From Vulcanimicrobiota bacterium (lineage in GTDB: Bacteria > Vulcanimicrobiota > Vulcanimicrobiia > Vulcanimicrobiales > Vulcanimicrobiaceae), in assembly GCA_028287565.1 (NCBI GenBank), contig JAQBPK010000099.1, forward strand, positions 1 through 32,937: a stretch of 32,937 nt of DNA, given 5' to 3'. The position numbers and the translations under genes are program-made. Below, one piece after another: positions 4,115-32,937 of this stretch. A model generated the notes under the pieces. The model saw nothing but the letters and a program-made list of their open reading frames with translations, was not told the origin of the DNA and did not search any database. Every line of letters begins with the position of its first letter. Within the stretch, counting starts at the first letter, position 1.

Positions 4115-6022
4115 GTGATCGCCGAGGCCCCCGGACCGAACATCAACCTGAGCCGGTCGCAGACGATCCGGCTGGTCGTCGTCGGAATCCTGGTGGTCCT
4201 CGCGCTGCTGCGCGTCGTACCGGATTTCGTGCGCGTCGCTTACCCGCTGCAGCTGTTCCGCTATCAGACCGACGGCAACGGCATCGTCAGCAGCGTCGCG
4301 CCGCGACCGTCGCCCACGCCGCGCGGCGCGGCGCGATCGGGCGTGGCGCGCGCCACGGCCAACCTGGTGTCGTTCGCCCGCCGCGGCCGGGGCAAGGCTT
4401 CGGTGAAGCCGTCCCCCGCGCCCGATCTGGGCGATGAGCTGCTGCGCGGCGACCGCGTGCGCATCGACCGGATCAGGCCGTTCGACCGCAAGCCCGGACT
4501 CGCGGGGCGCGGCTACACGTACGAGAACCCGATTCGGTTCTTGCCGGTCGAGCGCGCCGGCGAGGAGCGCGTGCTGCGCTTGGTGGCACGCCCCGAGTCG
4601 GTGACGATTCGTTCGACCGACATGCTGCGCATCGTGCTCTGCATCATTGCCGTGGCGCTCGGTGCCATGCTGTTCCTGATCAAGCCCAGCATCGCAACGG
4701 CGGCGTTCTTCGTCTTCTCGCTTGCCGCCGTCGAAGCGCCCGTGACCTACCTCGACACGATCATCCCAAACCCGTGGCGGCCGATTCCGGAGTGGATTCA
4801 CGACACGCTGCGCGGCGCCGTGCGGCCCGCGCTGCTGCTGTTCGCGCTGTGCCTGATCGACGGCGACGCCGACGCGCCCCGCGAGCGCCTGTTCGCGTGG
4901 TTCGCCGCCGCGCTTGCCATCGGCCTCGGCACGCTGAACGCGTACGCGCAATGGTCGATGAACTACGCTGCGCTGCCCGCGGAGCAGCTCGACCGCATCC
5001 TGCGCGGCACCTGGCACACGATCGACGTGATGATCGGCATCGCGCTGCTGGTCGCGTTCGTGCGCGCGCGGACGAACGACCGCCACCGCATCAGCTGGAT
5101 CGCGGCGGCGTTCTTGTTCGCGGGCGCGGCTCGGCTCGCATCCGACACGTTCTATCCCGGGCGCATCACGGGCTGGCAGAACAGCCTGCTCGTGTCCGCG
5201 ACGATCGTGCCGATCGCGACGATCTGGATCGCCGTGATCCGGCACCAGTTCTTCAACGTGGACTTCGTCGTGAGCCGTGCCGTCGTCTACGCCGCGCTCA
5301 CCGCCGGCGTCTTCGGCGTGATCTCCGTGTTCGAGGAGGTCGGCACGTACCTGTTCTACCAAAACGCCGACTTCGCGTACATCGTGTTCTCCGCGATCAC
5401 GCTTGGGCTCGGGATGATCACCGGCCGGCTCGTCAAGGTTCTCTCGCAGCTGGTCGACCGGTTCATCTTCCGCGACCGGCGCGAGCAGCGGCAGGCGCTC
5501 GAGTTCATTGCCGGCTACATCCTCGATGCCGAGACCGTCGAGGACGTCTACCGCGCGCTGCTGCAGGATGCGCCGCATGCGCTCAAGCTCTCGTTCGGCG
5601 GGATCCTCGGCCGCCAGCCCGACGGCAGCTACGTCCTCGCGCAGCAGAACAACTGGCCGGAGGACTTCAGCATCCGGCTCGATCCCAACGACGAGATCAC
5701 GCGCGCCATCACGCGCACGCGCGGCGCGCTGAGCTTCTCCGGCAAGGACACGCGGCTGATCCAGCGGTCGTTTCCGAACGAGCGGCTGACGTTCGCGGCA
5801 CCGATCTTCTTCGACCGCACGGTCAGCGGCATCGTGGTGTACGGCCACAACGTGAGCGGCCTGGACCTCGACCCCGAGGAGCGCGAGCACCTCGTGCGCG
5901 TCGTCGCGCACGCGTCGATCGCGCTGAACACGATCGAGCTCAACCGCTACCGGAACGCGAACGCAACGGCACCGCTCCCGGCGCCGGAACCGGCCCCGCT
6001 CCCATCCCCCGAACCAGCCTGA
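4115..6022 (+). CDS. Multi-pass membrane protein with PDZ-like extracytoplasmic region and C-terminal GAF domain
   Basis: This 635-residue protein starts at GTG. One membrane helix (about 18-40) is followed by an extracytoplasmic stretch. Its second half, about residues 107-165 (GDELLRGDRVRIDRIRPFD onward), resembles a PDZ-like module. About nine further hydrophobic segments run between residues 170 and 445. Then comes VDRFIFRDRREQRQALEFIAGYIL, typical of the linker after 7TM sensor regions in histidine kinases and GGDEF proteins. A GAF-like domain occupies about 465-605, and a proline-rich tail (APLPAPEPAPLPSPEPA) ends the protein. No kinase, GGDEF, EAL, HD or DNA-binding output follows, so it would have to signal through a partner. 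It may be co-transcribed with the upstream metabolic genes (28-nt gap). The ligand is unknown. Confidence 0.8.
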   Translation: MIAEAPGPNINLSRSQTIRLVVVGILVVLALLRVVPDFVRVAYPLQLFRYQTDGNGIVSSVAPRPSPTPRGAARSGVARATANLVSFARRGRGKASVKPSPAPDLGDELLRGDRVRIDRIRPFDRKPGLAGRGYTYENPIRFLPVERAGEERVLRLVARPESVTIRSTDMLRIVLCIIAVALGAMLFLIKPSIATAAFFVFSLAAVEAPVTYLDTIIPNPWRPIPEWIHDTLRGAVRPALLLFALCLIDGDADAPRERLFAWFAAALAIGLGTLNAYAQWSMNYAALPAEQLDRILRGTWHTIDVMIGIALLVAFVRARTNDRHRISWIAAAFLFAGAARLASDTFYPGRITGWQNSLLVSATIVPIATIWIAVIRHQFFNVDFVVSRAVVYAALTAGVFGVISVFEEVGTYLFYQNADFAYIVFSAITLGLGMITGRLVKVLSQLVDRFIFRDRREQRQALEFIAGYILDAETVEDVYRALLQDAPHALKLSFGGILGRQPDGSYVLAQQNNWPEDFSIRLDPNDEITRAITRTRGALSFSGKDTRLIQRSFPNERLTFAAPIFFDRTVSGIVVYGHNVSGLDLDPEEREHLVRVVAHASIALNTIELNRYRNANATAPLPAPEPAPLPSPEPA

Positions 6023-24076: not shown

Positions 24077-24094
24077 CTACAGAATTAGTTGTAG
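24077..24094. promoter_or_regulatory. Inverted repeat CTACA-N8-TGTAG, candidate regulator site
   Basis: This 5-bp inverted repeat with an AT-rich 8-nt centre (GAATTAGT) is the only AT-rich stretch in the 155-nt divergent gap between the CadC-like regulator and the MFS/trehalose operon. It is a natural candidate operator or promoter region. Confidence 0.4.
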
Positions 24095-24189
24095 TGCCGC
24101 GCCGCTCCTTCCGGAGATCTCACGCTTCCCGCGGTTTCCGCGCGGGGACCCTCGGGTACCTCATAGCGTCGCTCGCCCGCTCGCCGCTC

Positions 24190-24196
24190 GGAGGAA
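24190..24196 (+). promoter_or_regulatory. Ribosome binding site GGAGGAA that fixes a TTG start
   Basis: The sequence and spacing are the same as for the divergent regulator gene: GGAGG, 4 nt, then TTG at 24199. It decides the MFS start. Confidence 0.75.
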
Positions 24197-24198
24197 CG

Positions 24199-25638
24199 TT
24201 GGCCGCCAACGCCGCGCACATCTCGACTGACATCCCGTTCCGCCTCGATCGCTTACCGTGGGCGAAGTGGCACTGGGTCGTCGTCATCGGGCTCGGCATC
24301 ACGTGGATCCTCGACGGGCTCGAGGTGACGATCGTCGGCACGATCGGCCCGACGCTGACGTCGAAGAACGGTTTGGGACTCACGCCCGAACAGGCCACCG
24401 CGGCGGGCAGCTTCTATCTGGTCGGCGCGTGCGTGGGCGCGCTGGTGTTCGGCTACCTCACCGACAAGCTCGGGCGCAAGAAGCTGTTCCTCGTCACGCT
24501 GACATGGTATCTCGTGAGCACGCTGCTCACCGCGTTTGCATGGGACTTCTGGAGCTTCGCGCTCTTCCGCATGCTCGCGGGCGCGGGGATCGGCGGCGAG
24601 TACAGCGCGGTGAACTCCGCGATCGACGAGCTCATCCCGTCGGCGCGGCGCGGCGTCGCAGACATCGCGATCAACGGCTCGTGGTGGATCGGCACGCTGA
24701 TCGGTTCGCTGGTGTCGGTGCCGCTGCTCGACGGCCGCTTCATCCCCCCGTCGCTGGGCTGGCGCCTTGCGTTCGGCTTGGGCGCGTTTCTTGCGATCGC
24801 GGTGCTCGCGATCCGGCGCGGAATTCCGGAGAGCCCGCGCTGGCTGCTCACGCACGGCCGGCACGACGAGGCGGAGAAGATCGTGAGCGAGATCGAAGTC
24901 GAGGTGCGCAAGGAGACGGGCGAAGAGCTCCCGCGCGCGCCGCACAAGCAGATCACGTTCGACTCGTCGCGCAAGCACGGGATGCTCGACACGGTCGTCA
25001 CGATGGCGAAGACGTATCCGCAGCGCACGATCCTCGTGATGACGCTGATGATCACGCAGGCGTTTCTCTACAACGCCGTCTTCTTCACCCAAGGCCTGAC
25101 GCTCACGACGTTCTTCAAGGTCGCGCCGGGCGACGTCGGGTTCTACATCATCCCGTTCGCGATCGGCAACTTCCTCGGTGCGTTGATCTTAGGACATTTC
25201 TTCGACATCATCGGGCGCAAGATCATGATCTCGGGCTGTTACATCGTCAGCGGGCTGCTGCTGATCCTCACCACGATCCTGTTCCTCGGCGGCAGCCTCA
25301 CCGCGACGTCGATCGCGCTATGCTGGTCGGCGATGTTCTTCTTCGCGAGCGCGGGAGCGAGCGCCGCGTACCTCACCGTCAGCGAGATCTTTCCGCTGGA
25401 GACGCGGGCCGCGGCGATCGCCGTGGTGTACGCGGTCGGGACGCTGGTCGGCGGCGCGCTCGCGCCGGTCGTCTACGGCCACCTGATCGCGACGAAGGAC
25501 CCGCAGATGCTCGCGCGCGGCTGGATCTTCGGCGCGGTGCTCATGATCGTGGGCGGGATCGTGGAGATCGTGCTGGGCGTGGATGCCGAACGCAAGTCGC
25601 TGGAGGACATCGCAGCACCGCTCACCCAAGCTGCGTAG
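24199..25638 (+). CDS. MFS transporter, sugar-porter-like
   Basis: This 479-residue protein has 12 predicted membrane helices. Major-facilitator landmarks include an acidic pair in helix 1 (ITWILDGLEVTIVGTIG), the loop 2-3 motif DKLGRKKLF, RMLAGAGIGGEYSAVNSAIDE, PESPRWLLTHGR after helix 6 (a sugar-porter family mark), and FDIIGRKIMISG in the second half. The TTG start at 24199 has an ideal Shine-Dalgarno; an upstream in-frame GTG at 24094 would add 35 arginine-rich residues and cross the intergenic operator, so it is rejected. The treS start lies 3 nt after its stop, so it is the first gene of the trehalose operon. A sugar such as maltose, trehalose or glucose is a plausible substrate, though metabolite:H+ symporters share these motifs. 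Confidence 0.88.
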   Translation: MAANAAHISTDIPFRLDRLPWAKWHWVVVIGLGITWILDGLEVTIVGTIGPTLTSKNGLGLTPEQATAAGSFYLVGACVGALVFGYLTDKLGRKKLFLVTLTWYLVSTLLTAFAWDFWSFALFRMLAGAGIGGEYSAVNSAIDELIPSARRGVADIAINGSWWIGTLIGSLVSVPLLDGRFIPPSLGWRLAFGLGAFLAIAVLAIRRGIPESPRWLLTHGRHDEAEKIVSEIEVEVRKETGEELPRAPHKQITFDSSRKHGMLDTVVTMAKTYPQRTILVMTLMITQAFLYNAVFFTQGLTLTTFFKVAPGDVGFYIIPFAIGNFLGALILGHFFDIIGRKIMISGCYIVSGLLLILTTILFLGGSLTATSIALCWSAMFFFASAGASAAYLTVSEIFPLETRAAAIAVVYAVGTLVGGALAPVVYGHLIATKDPQMLARGWIFGAVLMIVGGIVEIVLGVDAERKSLEDIAAPLTQAA

Positions 25639-25641
25639 ACG

Positions 25642-28600
25642 TTGCCTCCCGACGACCGGTTCTGGTACCGCGACGCGGTCGTGTACCAGACGCACATCAA
25701 AGCTTTCCAGGACTCCAACGGCGACGGTGTCGGCGACGTGCGCGGGCTCACGTCCCGGCTCGACTATCTCGCGGAGCTCGGCGTCACCGCGCTGTGGCTG
25801 CTGCCGTTCTTTCCCTCGCCGCTGCGCGACGACGGTTACGACATCTCGAACTACACGGACGTCCACCCGTCGTACGGCACGCTCGAGGACGTGCAGCGGC
25901 TCGTCGGCGAAGCGCACGCGCGCGGCATCCGCGTCATCGCGGAGCTCGTCGTCAACCACACCTCCGATCAGCACCCGTGGTTCCAGCGCGCGCGCCACGC
26001 GCCGAGCGGCTCACCGGAGCGCGCGTGGTACGTGTGGTCGGACGACGACCGCGCGTACGCCGGGACCCGCATCATCTTCACCGACACCGAGATGTCGAAC
26101 TGGGCCTGGGACCCGGTCGCGGGGCAGTACTACTGGCACCGGTTCTTCTCGCATCAGCCCGATCTAAACTTCGAGAACCCCGAAGTGATCCGCGCAATCA
26201 CGGACGCGATGCGCTTTTGGTCGAAGATCGGGATCGACGGCTTTCGGTTGGACGCGGTGCCGTATCTGTGCGAGCGCGAAGGGACGAACAACGAGAACCT
26301 GCCCGAGACGCACGGCGTCATCAAGGTGCTGCGTGCGGTGCTCGAAGAGGAATTCCCCGACCGCATCTTCCTCGCCGAGGCGAACCAGTGGCCTGAAGAC
26401 CTGTCGTCGTACTTCGGCGACGGCGACGAGTGCCACATGTGCTTCCACTTCCCGCTCATGCCGCGGCTGTTCATGGCGGTCGCCGACGAGGACCGCTATC
26501 CCGTTCACGACATCCTGCGCCAGACGCCGCCGATCCCCGAGGGCTGCCAGTGGGCGGTGTTTCTGCGCAATCACGACGAGCTGACGCTGGAGATGGTGAG
26601 CGAGCGCGAGCGCGAGCGCATGAACGCGGTGTACGCGGTCGAGCCGAAGATGCGCATCAACGTCGGCATCCGCCGCCGGCTCGCGCCGCTGCTGGAGAAC
26701 GACCGGAGGCGCATCGAGCTCATTAACGGGCTTCTGATGTCGATGCCCCGCACGCCGGTAATCTACTACGGCGACGAGATCGGGATGGGCGACAACCTGT
26801 TCCTCAAAGACCGCGACGGCGTGCGCACGCCGATGCAGTGGTCGCCCGACCGCAACGGCGGCTTCTCGCTCGCCGAGCAAGTGCGGCTGTACGCGCCGGT
26901 GGTCACCGACCCGACGTACGGCTATTCCGCCGTGAACGTGGAGTCCCAGGAGCGCAACTCCACCTCGCTGCTCAACTGGATGCGGCGCATCATTGCGGTG
27001 CGCAAAGCGAGCACGGTGTTCGGGCGCGGCACGCTCACGCTGCTGTATCCCGAAAACCGGCGCGTGCTCGCGTACCTGCGCGAGCACGACGGCGACACCG
27101 TGCTCGTGGCGGCGAACCTCGCGCACACCGCGCAGGCGGTGCAGCTCGACCTCGCGCAGTTCGCCGGGCGCACGCCGTTAGAGATGCTCGGCTCGACGGC
27201 GTTTCCGCCGATCGCGACGACGCCGTACACGATCACGCTCGCGCCGTACGGCTTCTTCTGGTTTTCCCTCGTGCGCGATCCGCACGGGACGGCGGCGCCG
27301 ATTCGTTCGAGCGCGCTGCCGGAGCTTCCGACGGTCGTCGTGCCGCGCGGCGGCGTGGCGTTCGACGCGTGGGCGCGCGCGGTGATCGACGGCGACGTCG
27401 TCCCGGCGGCGCTCGGCGCGGCGCAGCACGGCCACGTGATCGACGCCTTCGTGGCGGACGAGATCGATCCGTCGCTCGCGTTCGTGGTCGTCGGCGAAGG
27501 ATCGAACCGCACCTCGCTGATGCTGCGTTTCGCATGGGACTCGGCGATCCGCGAAGACGCGCTCGCGCGCGCGCGCAGCGGGCCGCGCGAAGGATGGATC
27601 GCGGACGCGGCTTTGGATTCCGCGACCGCGCTCGCGATCGAGCGCGCGATGCGCGCCGGCACGGAGCTGCGCGACGACGACGGGCGCATGACGTTCGTGT
27701 GGGAAGGTGATGCGCGACCGGAGGCGAGCTCGTCGCAGCGGTTCGGGTTGGCGCCCGGCACGCAGCGCTGGATCCTCGACGATTCGCGGCTGGTGACGCT
27801 GCACCGCCGCATTCCGCGCGTCCAGAACAGCACCGTCGCTTTTCTGCGCCATCTGCGCGAGCGCGGTTTCGAGCAGGCGCCGCAGCTGTTCGGCAGCGTG
27901 CTGGTGAGCGACCGCAGCGGCGAGACGTGGGTCGCGGTCACATCGCAGAGCTTCATCCAGAACCCGACCGACATCGAAGCGGCGCTGCGCGAGATCCTGC
28001 GCACGGGAACGGCCGACGAACGCCTCATCCGCACCGCGCAGCACGTCGCCGATGCGCTCGCGGCGCTGCACCGCGCGCTGTCGATGCCGGGAAGCGACCC
28101 GACGTTCGGGACGCGCCCGCTCACGCCGGACGACCTCGCCGGCTGGCGTTCCGCCGCGCACGACGATCTCACGGCGATCGCGGCGTCCGGCATCGCGAGC
28201 ATCGCCGACGTGCGCGAGCGCATCGCCGCGGCGATCGACGGCCTGCCGGCAGCGGTGGGCGCCGCGTCGGCGCGCGCGCACGGTCGGCTGACGCTCAGCC
28301 GCGTGCTCCTGGTCGACGGACTGCCGGTGTTCGTCGGTTTCGGCGAGGCGCTGGCGCGGCGCTCGTCGCCGCTCAAGGACGTAGCGCTGCTCGCCAGATC
28401 GTTCGACGCGGTCACGCGCGAGACGATCCAGGCGAGCGCGTTCGATCCGACCGCCGACCGCGGCATGACGCGCGCGACGATGCTCGACCTCACGGCGCGC
28501 GTGCGCGAAGCGTTTCTCGCGCGCTACGCGGCGAGCGCGAGCGATCTTGCGACGATGCCGAGCGATCCCGCGCAGCGCGACGCGCTGATCCGCTTCTTCC

Positions 28601-28707
28601 GCCTGCAATCCGCGCTGCGCGACGTGCGCGATGCGCTCGCCGGGCACCCGAGCGCGCTGGCCGGCGCGGTCGACGCGCTGCGCGCCGAAGCCGACGGACC
28701 GCTGTGA
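25642..28707 (+). CDS. treS: Trehalose synthase fused to a degenerate maltokinase-like domain
   Basis: Residues 1 to about 545 are a full GH13 trehalose synthase that interconverts maltose and trehalose. It shows WYRDAVVYQTHIKAFQDSNGDGVGD, LPFFPSPLRDDGYDI, nucleophile D204 in GFRLDAV, acid/base E246 in FLAEANQW, and D312 in LRNHDE. The remainder (about 560-1021) aligns by position and fragments with the maltokinase domain of TreS-Mak fusions (SPLKDVALLARSFD). The expected ATP-binding lysine is T719 (VTLHRRI), the catalytic HGD(L/Y)HLGQ is HGRLTLSR (R882 for Asp), and the metal-binding DFEGEP is GFGEAL (G899 for Asp). It therefore looks like a pseudokinase. The TTG start lies 3 nt after the MFS stop, without a clear Shine-Dalgarno. 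The stop overlaps treZ. Confidence 0.93.
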   Translation: MPPDDRFWYRDAVVYQTHIKAFQDSNGDGVGDVRGLTSRLDYLAELGVTALWLLPFFPSPLRDDGYDISNYTDVHPSYGTLEDVQRLVGEAHARGIRVIAELVVNHTSDQHPWFQRARHAPSGSPERAWYVWSDDDRAYAGTRIIFTDTEMSNWAWDPVAGQYYWHRFFSHQPDLNFENPEVIRAITDAMRFWSKIGIDGFRLDAVPYLCEREGTNNENLPETHGVIKVLRAVLEEEFPDRIFLAEANQWPEDLSSYFGDGDECHMCFHFPLMPRLFMAVADEDRYPVHDILRQTPPIPEGCQWAVFLRNHDELTLEMVSERERERMNAVYAVEPKMRINVGIRRRLAPLLENDRRRIELINGLLMSMPRTPVIYYGDEIGMGDNLFLKDRDGVRTPMQWSPDRNGGFSLAEQVRLYAPVVTDPTYGYSAVNVESQERNSTSLLNWMRRIIAVRKASTVFGRGTLTLLYPENRRVLAYLREHDGDTVLVAANLAHTAQAVQLDLAQFAGRTPLEMLGSTAFPPIATTPYTITLAPYGFFWFSLVRDPHGTAAPIRSSALPELPTVVVPRGGVAFDAWARAVIDGDVVPAALGAAQHGHVIDAFVADEIDPSLAFVVVGEGSNRTSLMLRFAWDSAIREDALARARSGPREGWIADAALDSATALAIERAMRAGTELRDDDGRMTFVWEGDARPEASSSQRFGLAPGTQRWILDDSRLVTLHRRIPRVQNSTVAFLRHLRERGFEQAPQLFGSVLVSDRSGETWVAVTSQSFIQNPTDIEAALREILRTGTADERLIRTAQHVADALAALHRALSMPGSDPTFGTRPLTPDDLAGWRSAAHDDLTAIAASGIASIADVRERIAAAIDGLPAAVGAASARAHGRLTLSRVLLVDGLPVFVGFGEALARRSSPLKDVALLARSFDAVTRETIQASAFDPTADRGMTRATMLDLTARVREAFLARYAASASDLATMPSDPAQRDALIRFFRLQSALRDVRDALAGHPSALAGAVDALRAEADGPL

Positions 28708-30500
28708 CGCGTTACGGCCATGCCATGCCGTTCGGCGCGGAGCTGCGCGATGACGGCGTCGCATTTCGTCTCTGGGCGCCTTCGCGCGAGCGCGCGTCGG
28801 TGATCGTCGACGGTGCGGAACACATGCTGGAGCCGCGCGCCGCCGGATGGTTCGAGCGCACGGTGCGCGACGCGCGCGCGGGCTCGCGCTACGGGTTCGC
28901 GTTCCCCGGCTTCGGCGTGCACGTGCCCGACCCGGCGGCGCGCTTCGCGCCCGGTGGCGTGCACGCGCCGAGCGAAGTGGTCGACCCATGCGCCTACGTC
29001 TGGCGCGAAACGGCATGGCTGGGACGGCCGTGGCACGAGACCGTGCTGTACGAGCTGCACGTGGGGACGTTCACGCCGGAAGGCACGTATGCTGCAGCCG
29101 CGGAGCGGCTCGACGATCTGGTGCGGCTCGGCGTGACGGCGGTCGAGCTGATGCCGCTCGCGCAGCCGGCCGGCACGCGCAACTGGGGCTACGACGGCGT
29201 GCTGCCGTTCGCGCCGCAGCACGCGTACGGGACGCCCGGCGACCTCAAAGCGTTCGTCGAAGCGGCGCACGCGCGCGGGCTGTCGGTGTTCCTGGACGTC
29301 GTCTACAACCACTTCGGGCCCGAGGGAAACTACCTGCACGCATTCGCGGAGCCGTTCTTCACCGAGCGCCACCACACGCCGTGGGGCGCGGCACTCAACG
29401 TCGACGGCGAGCACGCGGGCGTCGTGCGCGAGTTCTTCGTGCAGAACGCGCTGTACTGGCTGCGCGAGTACCGTTTCGACGGGTTGCGCCTCGACGCGGT
29501 GCACGAGATCCGCGACGACTCGCGGCGGCCGTTCCTCGACGAGCTTGCGGCGCGCGTTCGCGCGGACGTCGAGCCCGGCCGCCACGTGCATCTGGTGCTC
29601 GAGAACGACGCGAACGACGCGCGGCGGCTCGCGGTGTACGACGCGCAGTGGAACGACGACGCGCACCACGCGCTGCACGTCCTGGTCACGCGCGAGCGCG
29701 ACGGCTATTACCGCGACTACGCGGACGAGCCTGCGCGGCTGCTCGGGCGCGCGCTCGCGGAAGGCTTCGCGTACCAAGGCGAACCGTCCGCGCACCGCGG
29801 CGGCGCGCCGCGCGGCGAGCCCAGCGCGTCGCTGCCCGCGACCGCGTTCGTCGACTTCCTGCAGAACCACGACCAGATCGGCAACCGCGCGCTGGGCGAG
29901 CGCATCGCCGCGCTCGCGCCGGACGATGCGGTGCGCGCGGCGACGGCGGTGGTGCTGCTCGCGCCGGCGATCCCGCTGCTGTTCATGGGCGAGGAATGGG
30001 CCGCGTCGACGCCGTTCTTGTTCTTCTCGGACTTCGGCGAAGAGCTCGGGCAGGCGGTCACCGAAGGGCGCCGCCGTGAGTTCGCCGCGTGGGCGTCGTT
30101 CGCCGGTCCGACGGCGCGCGAGCGCATCCCCGATCCGCAGGATCCCGCCACGATGCGCGCGTCGGTGCTGCGCTGGGACGAGCGCGCGCAACCGTCGCAC
30201 GCAGCGGTGCTCGCGTTTCACGAAGAGCTGCTCGCGCTGCGCGGCGGGCTCATCGTCCCGCGGCTCGCGCACGGCGCGCACGGCGACGGCTACCAACTGC
30301 TCGCGAAGACGGCGCTGCGCGTGAAGTGGCGCTTCGGTGACGGCTCGCGGCTCGGGCTGATCGCGAACCTCGGGCCCGAGCCGGCGACGGTGTCGTACGC
30401 GATCGGCGGCGTGCGCGTGTTCGCGCTCGGCGACGTCCCCGCGCACGCGGACGCGACGGCGCTCGCGCCGTGGAGCGCGGGCTGGTTTCTCGAGTCGTGA
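28704..30500 (+). CDS. treZ: Maltooligosyltrehalose trehalohydrolase
   Basis: TreZ releases trehalose from maltooligosyl-trehalose made by TreY. The N-terminal beta domain (FGAELRDDGVAFRLWAPSRERASVIVDG) is the usual TreZ/GH13 E-set module. The GH13 barrel follows with YELHVGTFTPEGTYAAAAERL, NWGYDGVLPFAPQHAYGTP and FLDVVYNHFGPEGNYL. The catalytic triad reads D264 in GLRLDAVHEI, E300 in HLVLENDAND and D390 in LQNHDQIGNRALG. LLFMGEEWAASTPFLFFSDF completes the family pattern. Length of 598 residues is normal. The GTG start overlaps the treS stop by 4 nt (GTGA), and the treZ stop overlaps the treY start in the same way. Confidence 0.96.
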   Translation: MTRYGHAMPFGAELRDDGVAFRLWAPSRERASVIVDGAEHMLEPRAAGWFERTVRDARAGSRYGFAFPGFGVHVPDPAARFAPGGVHAPSEVVDPCAYVWRETAWLGRPWHETVLYELHVGTFTPEGTYAAAAERLDDLVRLGVTAVELMPLAQPAGTRNWGYDGVLPFAPQHAYGTPGDLKAFVEAAHARGLSVFLDVVYNHFGPEGNYLHAFAEPFFTERHHTPWGAALNVDGEHAGVVREFFVQNALYWLREYRFDGLRLDAVHEIRDDSRRPFLDELAARVRADVEPGRHVHLVLENDANDARRLAVYDAQWNDDAHHALHVLVTRERDGYYRDYADEPARLLGRALAEGFAYQGEPSAHRGGAPRGEPSASLPATAFVDFLQNHDQIGNRALGERIAALAPDDAVRAATAVVLLAPAIPLLFMGEEWAASTPFLFFSDFGEELGQAVTEGRRREFAAWASFAGPTARERIPDPQDPATMRASVLRWDERAQPSHAAVLAFHEELLALRGGLIVPRLAHGAHGDGYQLLAKTALRVKWRFGDGSRLGLIANLGPEPATVSYAIGGVRVFALGDVPAHADATALAPWSAGWFLES

Positions 30501-32937
30501 CGCCGCGCTCGACGTACCGGCTCCAGTTCCACGCCGGCTTCCGGTTCGACGACGCGACGGCGCTGATCCCGTATCTCGCATCGCTCGGAATCTCGCACGT
30601 CTACGCGTCGCCGTATCTCAAAGCACGCGCGGGCTCCACGCACGGCTACGACATCGTGGACCACGGCGAGCTCAACCCGGAGATCGGCACCCCGGAGGAG
30701 TACCGGCGCTTCGTGGACACGCTGCGCGCGCACGGGATGGGACACATCCTCGACTTCGTGCCCAACCACATGGGCGTCGGCGGCGACGACAACGCGTGGT
30801 GGCTGGACCTGCTGACGTGGGGCGAGGACTCGCACTACTCGGACTACTTCGACGCCGACTGGCGCCCGCTGCGCGCCGAGCTGCGCGGCAAGATCCTGCT
30901 TCCGTTTCTCGGCCGGCAGTACGGTGACGTGCTCGACGAGGGCGAGCTGCGCTGGGAGTACGCCGGCGGCGGCTTCGCGCTGCGCTACTACGAGCACCGG
31001 CTGCCGCTCGCGCCGCCGTCGTACGCGCTCGTGCTCGCGAGCGCCGAGCCCGCGTCGCTCGCGTCGTTCGCGCCGCTGTTCGCCGCGCTCGACACGATGC
31101 CCGAGCACACGTCGCGGCGCAACGCCGCGGCGTCGCTGCGCCGCCTGGTCGCGGAGACCGAAGAGCGCACCGCGCGCGCACACGCCGAACGGCTCGACGC
31201 GGCGCGCACGACGCCGCAGGGCAAGACGCTGATCGAGCGCGTCGTCGAGGCGCAGCACTGGCGCCCGGCGTCCTGGAAGGTCGCCGCGGAGGAGATCAAC
31301 TACCGGCGTTTCTTCGACATCAACTCGCTCGCCGCGATCCGCATGGAGAACGCGAACTGCTTCGGCGACGCCCACCGGCTCGTGTTCGAGCTCGTCGCGC
31401 GCGGCGACGTCGACGGCCTGCGCCTCGACCACGTCGACGGCTTGTTCGACCCGATCGGGTATTGCGATCTGCTGTGCTCGCGCTCGGAGCTCCTCGGCCA
31501 GCCGATGTACCTGGTGATCGAGAAGATCCTCGCGGTGAACCAAGAGCTGCTCGACCGCTGGCACGTCGACGGCACGACCGGCTACGAGTTCATGAACGCG
31601 GTCACCGGACTGGCCGTCGCGGCGCACAACGAGCGCGCCTTCACCACGGTGTACCGGCGCTTCGCGCGCGACGCCGCGCCGTTCGAAGAAGTCGCCCACG
31701 CCGCGAAGAAGTTCGTGCTCGAGACGGCGATGTCGGCGGAGCTCAACGTCCTGGCGCTGCGGCTCGACCGGATCGCGCAGCGCGACCCGCGCACGCGCGA
31801 CTTCACGCTGGGCGCGCTGCGCCGCGCGCTGGTCGAGACGATCGCCGCGTTCCCCGTCTACCGCACGTACATCACCGGCGCGAAAGTCGAGCGGGCCGAC
31901 CGGCGCTTCATCGAGCGCGCGATCGCGGCGGCGCGCGCGAGCGATCCGTCGAACGAAGGCTCGGACTACGCGTTCCTGCGCCGCGTGCTGCTCACCGAGC
32001 ACGACGACGATTCGGTGCGCGAGCGCTACGTCGAGTTCGCGATGCGCTTCCAGCAGCTCACCGCACCCGTCACCGCCAAAGGCGTCGAGGACACCGCGTT
32101 CTACCGCTCGGTGCGGCTCGCCGCGCTCAACGAGGTCGGCGGCGATCCGGCGCGCTTCGGCACGTCGGTGGACGACTTCCACCGCCAGAACGCGCGGCGC
32201 GCGAAACACACGCCCAATGCGATGCTCGCCACCGCGACGCACGACATGAAGCGCGGCGAGGACGTGCGCGCGCGCATCGCCGCGATCTCCGAAGTGCCCG
32301 ATCAATGGCGGAGCGCGCTCGCGCGCTGGTCGCGGCTCAACCGCAAGCACCGCGGCGTCGTGAGCCCGCTGGCGGAGTATTTCGCATACCAAACGATCCT
32401 GGGTGCCTGGCCCATGGAGCTGCTGTCGGCGGAGCTCGACGCGGATGCGCTCGCGACGTTCACCGAGCGCATCGTCGGCTACATGCTCAAAGGCGGGCGC
32501 GAGGCAAAGCTGCGCACGAGCTGGACGAATCCGGACGCGGAGTATGAGGCCGCGCTCGAAGAGTTCGTGCGCGCGATCCTCGACCCGCAGCGCTCGGCGA
32601 CGTTCTTGGCGAGCCTGCGCACCGGCGCGCGCAGCCTCGCGGCGACCGCCGTGACGAACGGCCTCGCGCAAGCGGTGCTCAAGGCGACCGCGCCCGGCGT
32701 CCCCGACACGTACCAAGGCACGGAGCTGTGGGACTTGAGCCTGGTCGATCCCGACAACCGCCGCCCCGTCGACTTCGCCGCGCGCGCCGCGGCGCTGCGC
32801 GCGCTCGACGACGCGGTCGCAAGCGGCGTGCCGCGGGATGCGATCGCGCGCGATCTCATGGCCGCGTGGCCCGACGGCCGCATCAAGCTGTACGTGCTCG
32901 CGACGCTTTTGCGCCACCGCGCGAACGCCTCCTGGGC
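30497..32937 (+). CDS. treY: Maltooligosyl trehalose synthase (3' end outside window)
   Basis: TreY turns the reducing-end glucose of an alpha-1,4-glucan into a terminal alpha,alpha-1,1 (trehalose) unit. 813 codons are present with no stop; the family is typically 700-950 residues, so only a short C-terminal part is missing. It starts TPRSTYRLQFHAGFRFDDATALIPYLASLGISHVYASPYL. Other blocks are GSTHGYDIVDHGELNPEIG and ILDFVPNHMGVGGDDNAWW. The catalytic residues are D311 in VDGLRLDHVDGL, E342 in YLVIEKILA and D583 in TATHDMKRGED. APGVPDTYQGTELWDLSLVDPDNRRPVDF near the end is diagnostic. The GTG start overlaps treZ by 4 nt. Confidence 0.96.
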   Translation, partial: MTPRSTYRLQFHAGFRFDDATALIPYLASLGISHVYASPYLKARAGSTHGYDIVDHGELNPEIGTPEEYRRFVDTLRAHGMGHILDFVPNHMGVGGDDNAWWLDLLTWGEDSHYSDYFDADWRPLRAELRGKILLPFLGRQYGDVLDEGELRWEYAGGGFALRYYEHRLPLAPPSYALVLASAEPASLASFAPLFAALDTMPEHTSRRNAAASLRRLVAETEERTARAHAERLDAARTTPQGKTLIERVVEAQHWRPASWKVAAEEINYRRFFDINSLAAIRMENANCFGDAHRLVFELVARGDVDGLRLDHVDGLFDPIGYCDLLCSRSELLGQPMYLVIEKILAVNQELLDRWHVDGTTGYEFMNAVTGLAVAAHNERAFTTVYRRFARDAAPFEEVAHAAKKFVLETAMSAELNVLALRLDRIAQRDPRTRDFTLGALRRALVETIAAFPVYRTYITGAKVERADRRFIERAIAAARASDPSNEGSDYAFLRRVLLTEHDDDSVRERYVEFAMRFQQLTAPVTAKGVEDTAFYRSVRLAALNEVGGDPARFGTSVDDFHRQNARRAKHTPNAMLATATHDMKRGEDVRARIAAISEVPDQWRSALARWSRLNRKHRGVVSPLAEYFAYQTILGAWPMELLSAELDADALATFTERIVGYMLKGGREAKLRTSWTNPDAEYEAALEEFVRAILDPQRSATFLASLRTGARSLAATAVTNGLAQAVLKATAPGVPDTYQGTELWDLSLVDPDNRRPVDFAARAAALRALDDAVASGVPRDAIARDLMAAWPDGRIKLYVLATLLRHRANASW

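Follow-up and report, generated by a model that had tools for sequence, protein, structure and literature searches.

A TreS-maltokinase fusion gene (open reading frame 25642–28707, + strand, TTG start, 1021 amino acids) was characterized in the window, a stretch of 32,937 nucleotides that is one whole contig of a draft Vulcanimicrobiota genome (G000; 4.8 Mb, 399 contigs, 83.7% complete). Its product is likely to be a working TreS isomerase carrying a maltokinase domain that is catalytically dead, is not decaying and is retained for TreS. Among relatives, maltokinase domains were complete where GlgE was present and usually altered where it was not, an association that is new. TreS-maltokinase fusions are usually read as GlgE pathway proteins that produce maltose-1-phosphate. 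The TreS:Pep2 structure did not settle what, apart from catalysis, TreS gains from the kinase domain; natural fusions with a dead kinase allow this to be addressed cleanly, and the finding is also relevant to which way TreS flux runs in cells.

The gene was compared with its counterparts in the window genus (11 genomes, G000 itself and G001–G010, in assemblies 73–99% complete; G006 is 99% complete and in one contig). Ten site residues were scored: Lys149, the alpha-C Glu, Asp305, His307, Gln310, Asp322, Glu324, Lys413, Tyr416 and Tyr420. The alpha-C Glu is presumed to be a site residue, as in kinases generally. Copies that keep all ten are termed complete, and those that have lost site residues degenerate. 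Numbering is that of the M. vanbaalenii maltokinase (PMC4306142), carried to the window by alignment, and Gln310 entered the set of ten as a Mg ligand from PMC11046441. The halves of the fusion and the altered sites are as follows.

25642..27270, + strand: TreS half (maltose alpha-D-glucosyltransferase), residues 1–543, by TIGR02456
27271..28704, + strand: pseudo-maltokinase domain fused to TreS, residues 544–1021 (478 amino acids), by a sub-cut-off TIGR02457 match, AlphaFold2 and Foldseek
27796..27798, + strand: T719, site of the ATP-binding Lys149, by alignment
28285..28287, + strand: R882, site of the catalytic base Asp305, by alignment
28300..28302, + strand: R887, site of the Mg ligand Gln310, by alignment (role of Gln310, PMC11046441)
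28336..28338, + strand: G899, site of the Mg ligand Asp322, by alignment
28609..28632, + strand: S990, R993 and D997, sites of the maltose-binding Lys413, Tyr416 and Tyr420, by alignment (roles, PMC4306142)

In the window all ten site residues were replaced (K149T, alpha-C Glu to Thr, D305R, H307T, Q310R, D322G, E324G, K413S, Y416R and Y420D). The initial annotation had proposed a pseudokinase, with T719, R882 and G899 at the ATP-lysine, catalytic-Asp and metal-Asp positions; the residues are exactly those, and the alignment agrees with their placement. The same ten positions were altered in all nine uncut copies of the genus (Lys to Thr or Ser, Asp to Arg, Asp to Gly, Gln310 to Arg, Glu324 to Gly, His307 to Thr, Ser or Val, and altered maltose-site Lys, Tyr and Tyr), and the alignment of related fusions that had been suggested as a check thus found the substitutions conserved. 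The tenth copy, in G004, is cut; its readable part shows only the first two changes (Lys to Thr or Ser, Asp to Arg), and it was scored as degenerate on these two positions. H245 and D343, part of the network of hydrogen bonds that keeps the HGD loop in place in maltokinase (PMC4306142), were unchanged in every aligned row with letters, window included. The residues by which a maltokinase (EC 2.7.1.175) is recognized are missing from the C-terminal half: those for ATP and catalysis, both Mg ligands and the maltose site. Its catalytic residues are lost while predicted fold and selection are kept, as in a pseudokinase, so that the sequence bears out the original proposal. We conclude that the domain is almost certainly not a maltokinase, to judge from these residues, and that a maltokinase annotation would be wrong for the window protein.

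Against TIGR02457 (TreS_Cterm/putative maltokinase) the C-terminal half scored 99–103 bits, below the cut-off of 375. A Pfam scan of it listed no kinase domain, and a phmmer search of the PDB with the single C-terminal half gave chance-level matches only, while a 13-row profile of the domain matched maltokinases and a glucosamine kinase in the PDB. The AlphaFold2 model of the domain (33 sequences) had a predicted local distance difference test score (pLDDT) of 87.9 and a predicted template modelling score (pTM) of 0.88, with a helix and then strands at the place of the N-terminal cap. The top Foldseek matches in the PDB were the maltokinases 4u94, 4o7o and 5jy7, with glucosamine kinase next; template modelling scores were 0.61–0.82 over the whole or large chains listed (5jy7_I, 0.71/0.77), and the alignments spanned 463–464 columns of whole maltokinase chains. 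The window domain is therefore predicted to have the maltokinase fold including the N-terminal cap. The comparison with mycobacterial Mak that had been called for thus recovered the expected fold; the cap motif is unrecognizable, as had been stated, but the cap itself is predicted. Likewise the frame is intact, without a frameshift, as noted for a domain of about 460 residues at 27240–28707, although better bounds are residues ∼544 (nucleotide 27271) to 1021, or 478 amino acids. The domain resembles mycobacterial Mak/Pep2 (4u94, 4o7o, 5jy7) in predicted fold and cap and in H245 and D343; unlike them, it lacks Lys149, Asp305, Gln310, Asp322, Lys413, Tyr416 and Tyr420 and is fused to TreS.

The TreS half scored well over the curated cut-off of TIGR02456 (903.7 versus 678.35 bits), and its closest matches in the PDB, at up to 797 bits, are trehalose synthases. 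The residues taken to be catalytic as in GH13 enzymes, Asp/Glu/Asp, are present in the window together with the His of the first barrel, and the Asp/Glu/Asp were unchanged across all aligned rows with letters.

The C-terminal half was found in 10 of 11 genus genomes (its own, G001 and G003–G010, at 62–80% identity; absent from G002) without an internal stop in any of the ten copies, which indicates that it is more than a chance reading frame. It could nevertheless be a domain merely decaying after the loss of GlgE, its erosion caught midway. In favour of this, it evolves faster than TreS: the median ratio of nonsynonymous to synonymous substitution rates (dN/dS) was 0.356 (0.155–0.490; 45 pairs of 10 genomes, median synonymous divergence 0.66), as compared with 0.133 for the TreS half of the same genomes. 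The stem to the genus is also very long in the kinase tree (2.98 changes per column, as compared with 0.33 in the TreS tree), and a stray tail fragment occurs in G003. However, the frames are free of stops and dN/dS is well under 1. The ratio of kinase to TreS distance within the genus, 2.89 (44 of 45 pairs; the pair left out had a tiny TreS distance), is no higher than among complete maltokinases (3.05 over 15 pairs of complete copies from Eremiobacterota; 4.02 in 78 Proteobacteria pairs). The dead-site substitutions are fixed, the former catalytic loop RAHGRLTLSR lies at the 96th conservation percentile within the genus, and the AlphaFold2 model is a confident one. A burst of change and then renewed constraint would leave such a pattern. 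The segment SPLKDVALLARSFD, said to be retained, is indeed so, and RSSPLKDVAL tops conservation in the genus (100th percentile among 10-residue windows). Sequence comparison within the genus thus argues that the domain is fixed, under purifying selection and not decaying, and we regard mere decay as improbable. The G003 fragment (C120:12037–12297, L020) is a second piece of pseudokinase tail, 92 amino acids long and 62% identical to the window, at a contig end of a genome that also has a full copy; it was excluded from copy counts.

GlgE (PF11896) gave no match at E ≤ 10 in the 83.7%-complete window genome and none at E ≤ 0.001 in any of the 11 genus genomes. One maltokinase-like domain was found per genus genome, the G003 fragment aside; there was no second one in G000 or in the 99%-complete G006. 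The search for glgE and another mak proposed in the initial annotation therefore found neither in the window genome or in G006. The accompanying claim that maltose-1-phosphate is not made is supported as a probability for this route: with a pseudokinase, and no GlgE or second maltokinase found, maltose-1-phosphate is probably not made here. Of 12 genomes searched for glycogen synthase (PF08323), 3 had a match, G000 among them; the four other genus genomes searched had none.

The association with GlgE was seen across the phylum Eremiobacterota. With the 13-row profile, the domain turned up in 23 of 99 genomes of the family and, over the phylum, in 26 of 149, as 29 copies. PF11896 was over its cut-off in 9 of the 99 family genomes and in none of eight further or repeated genomes, four of which gave sub-threshold matches (12.6–14.6 bits). 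All ten residues were intact in 10 of the 29 copies, one for each of the nine GlgE+ genomes plus G129; the other 19 had each lost Gln310 (18 readable) plus at least two further residues. Among the 26 genomes with the domain, a complete maltokinase was thus present in 9/9 with GlgE versus 1/17 without (Fisher test, 3e-6), and by genus in 8/8 versus 1/6 (p = 0.003). Complete copies sit after GlgE in all six readable upstream regions (G015, G017, G023, G026, G072 and G102); the loci of degenerate copies run TreS-Mak-TreZ-TreY and have no GlgE. Two GlgE+ genomes, G023 and G120, carry a degenerate copy in a second TreS-Mak-TreZ-TreY locus and a complete maltokinase elsewhere, beside GlgE in G023. 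Other genes adjoin the copies in G030, G031 and G040 and the second copy in G101.

Three observations touch on these loci. G128 and G129 (L154 and L153) belong to one genus and have no GlgE; G129 is complete, and G128 shows D305N, H307N, Q310K and D322G, as if its kinase had been caught soon after loss. The GlgE reading frame of G023 (L134, 5253–8603) has an extra N-terminal GH13-like part of ∼455 amino acids. A similar GH13-like part lies near TreS-Mak in G040 (L143), where the GlgE domain was not found on the contig.

On the TreS tree the complete or degenerate label requires seven changes, five of them forced by well-supported branches, and the kinase tree agrees. A single origin for the whole set of degenerate f1/f2 copies of the Eremiobacterota was rejected (approximately unbiased test, p = 0.0008). 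On these trees, loss of the maltokinase has happened more than once. A clade of the window genus with the degenerate G023 copy (G023a), which has the same Asp-to-Arg and Asp-to-Gly changes, was not rejected (p = 0.27), and we therefore do not claim convergence between the two.

A similar pattern was observed outside the phylum. In 74 loci from other phyla, chosen by peptide patterns outside the active site, 66 copies had all ten residues, five were cut with every readable residue kept, one (L103) had K413R, and two (L039 and L094) were degenerate. All 66 complete copies have GlgE, 63 in the locus and three (L046, L065 and L101) elsewhere in the genome, as do the genomes of L099 and L103; no GlgE was found in the genomes of the degenerate L039 and L094. 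For the class of G150, the genome of L094, the association was predicted before GlgE was searched, when only the L094/G150 residues were known. The domain occurred in 62 of 296 genomes, 45 of them with GlgE. Of the readable copies in GlgE+ genomes, 43/44 were complete (G159 has Y416F; the cut G251 was left out), as compared with 2/17 without GlgE, the other 15 being altered. Among TreS-fused reading frames only, complete copies numbered 19/20 with GlgE versus 2/14 without; fusion was judged by one motif in the reading frame, so that fused rows may be missed (e.g. G266). The copies of G433 (broken reading frame), G206 and G242 (no TreS in the reading frame) are counted in the 2/17 and left out of the 2/14. 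GlgE presence and the ten residues seem to separate two kinds of fusion in three bacterial groups.

The altered copies of the class of G150 differ from those of the window genus: Lys149 and Asp322 remain, and the changes fall on the acceptor side. In the GlgE-less clade of G150, G201, G205, G307, G362, G383, G387, G400, G410 and G439 (e.g. L187 and L189–L192), Lys149, Asp305 and Asp322 are mostly kept, with H307R, Q310E (Gln in G439), E324S, Y416R (Ser in G410) and Y420W. To judge from these residues, the members may be kinases of another acceptor rather than dead. For the window domain, too, one might suppose that phosphate is still transferred, to another acceptor or by unusual residues, like certain 'pseudokinases' whose chemistry is unorthodox. 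Its relatives include sugar kinases of other specificity (glucosamine kinase, E 5e-11, and the Foldseek matches), and a change of substrate is plausible in the clade of G150, where the Lys and the Mg-binding Asp remain but the acceptor pocket is altered. In the window genus, however, neither the ATP lysine nor the catalytic Asp nor either Mg ligand remains, Arg having taken the place of two of these four, and residual phosphotransfer is quite unlikely. Least probable of all, to the point of being hard to credit, is an artefact of alignment or assembly, or a second kinase that supplies maltose-1-phosphate: the window genome is incomplete and fragmented and the two best motif windows are short, but nine genomes that were assembled separately, G006 among them, show the same changes, and only one maltokinase-like domain was found per genus genome, the G003 fragment aside.

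The TreS-Mak fusions of Pseudomonas aeruginosa and Estrella lausannensis (PMC11046441) have the same two domains, order and fold as the window protein; those fusions make maltose-1-phosphate, whereas in the window ten site residues are altered and GlgE was not found. Single-domain TreS (PDB 5x7u and 4tvu) shares the isomerase half and lacks the kinase domain. In Thermus thermophilus, TreS also has a C-terminal domain, perhaps unrelated to maltokinase, that is reported to raise TreS activity (PMC6100327). Plasmid searches for Thermus TreS gave none among the matches listed, which were mostly from Rhizobium, Azospirillum and similar genera. A limited literature search, with few subscription papers, found no published account of a dead maltokinase in a TreS context.

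Returning to a dead domain retained for TreS, its loss of activity would be consistent with what is reported of the pathway. Maltokinase draws TreS towards trehalose use (PMC11046441), and when GlgE fails, maltose-1-phosphate builds up and is toxic (PMC4526890). Without GlgE there would be no known outlet for maltose-1-phosphate, and trehalose would be lost irreversibly through an active kinase; the kinase may for these reasons have become harmful or useless after GlgE loss, and hence been lost. Its death would spare the cell maltose-1-phosphate and leave TreS interconverting maltose and trehalose beside TreZ and TreY. Trehalose synthesis genes are encoded in the genome of Vulcanimicrobium alpinus, according to the paper describing it. 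The domain itself is very probably kept for a non-catalytic role, and we lean towards one in the stability, assembly or regulation of TreS. TreS may have come to need it, most likely docked within the TreS assembly and serving stability or allosteric setting, by analogy with the mycobacterial complex, in which Pep2 docks on the TreS beta-sandwich (PMC6509496), and with Thermus TreS, which is more active with its C-terminal domain added (PMC6100327). Sugar sensing through the old maltose site, one of the roles first suggested, is unlikely, because the three maltose-binding residues are replaced by S990, R993 and D997.

Several results weigh against this interpretation. In the GlgE-less G129 all ten residues are present, and the site is likewise intact in two GlgE-less genomes of the class of G150 (G373, all ten; G358, nine readable); GlgE absence need not go with kinase loss, or GlgE was missed in these genomes. 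The 12 altered TreS-fused copies of that class form one group on the tree, so that the class adds one event, not twelve, and Fisher p-values for that class overstate independence. Phylogenetically independent pairs numbered only 2 and 3, far too few for a sign test. The full-length AlphaFold2 model was poor (pTM 0.50, with the TreS half poorly modelled; 25 sequences) and is uninformative about docking of the domain on TreS. TreS without a kinase domain exists as a single protein (PDB chains of 549–571 amino acids), so TreS needs no such domain in general, and TIGR02457 gave no match in one Thermus control genome.

A more speculative and rather doubtful extension is that the dead maltokinase has been turned into a regulatory subunit, in which the old ATP/Mg pocket, now lined by the two fixed arginines R882 and R887, binds an anion and sets TreS activity; a general, hidden non-catalytic job would then become visible where GlgE was lost. 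Candidate anions would be a sugar phosphate, polyphosphate or a nucleotide without Mg. The R882/R887 loop of the window genus is as conserved as in complete kinases.

Around the fusion gene lie the following genes.

24094..25638, + strand: transporter gene of major facilitator superfamily type, directly upstream of treS, named by eye
28704..30500, + strand: TreZ-like GH13 gene, GTG start (Pfam GH13, CBM48 and DUF3459; synteny in relatives)
30470..32937, + strand: TreY-like GH13 gene that runs off the contig end (Pfam GH13, open reading frame, synteny)

The start of the TreZ-like gene overlaps the treS stop by 4 bases. The names TreZ and TreY are assumed from gene place and similarity. The order TreS-pseudokinase-TreZ-TreY is common to the window, G001, G006, G007 and G008. 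Of five other genus loci examined, four have the transporter gene upstream of treS; the fifth is cut by its contig end. Further upstream, at 4115–6022 (+ strand), the window seems, by eye, to encode a membrane protein that has a GAF-like part with no kinase domain behind it.

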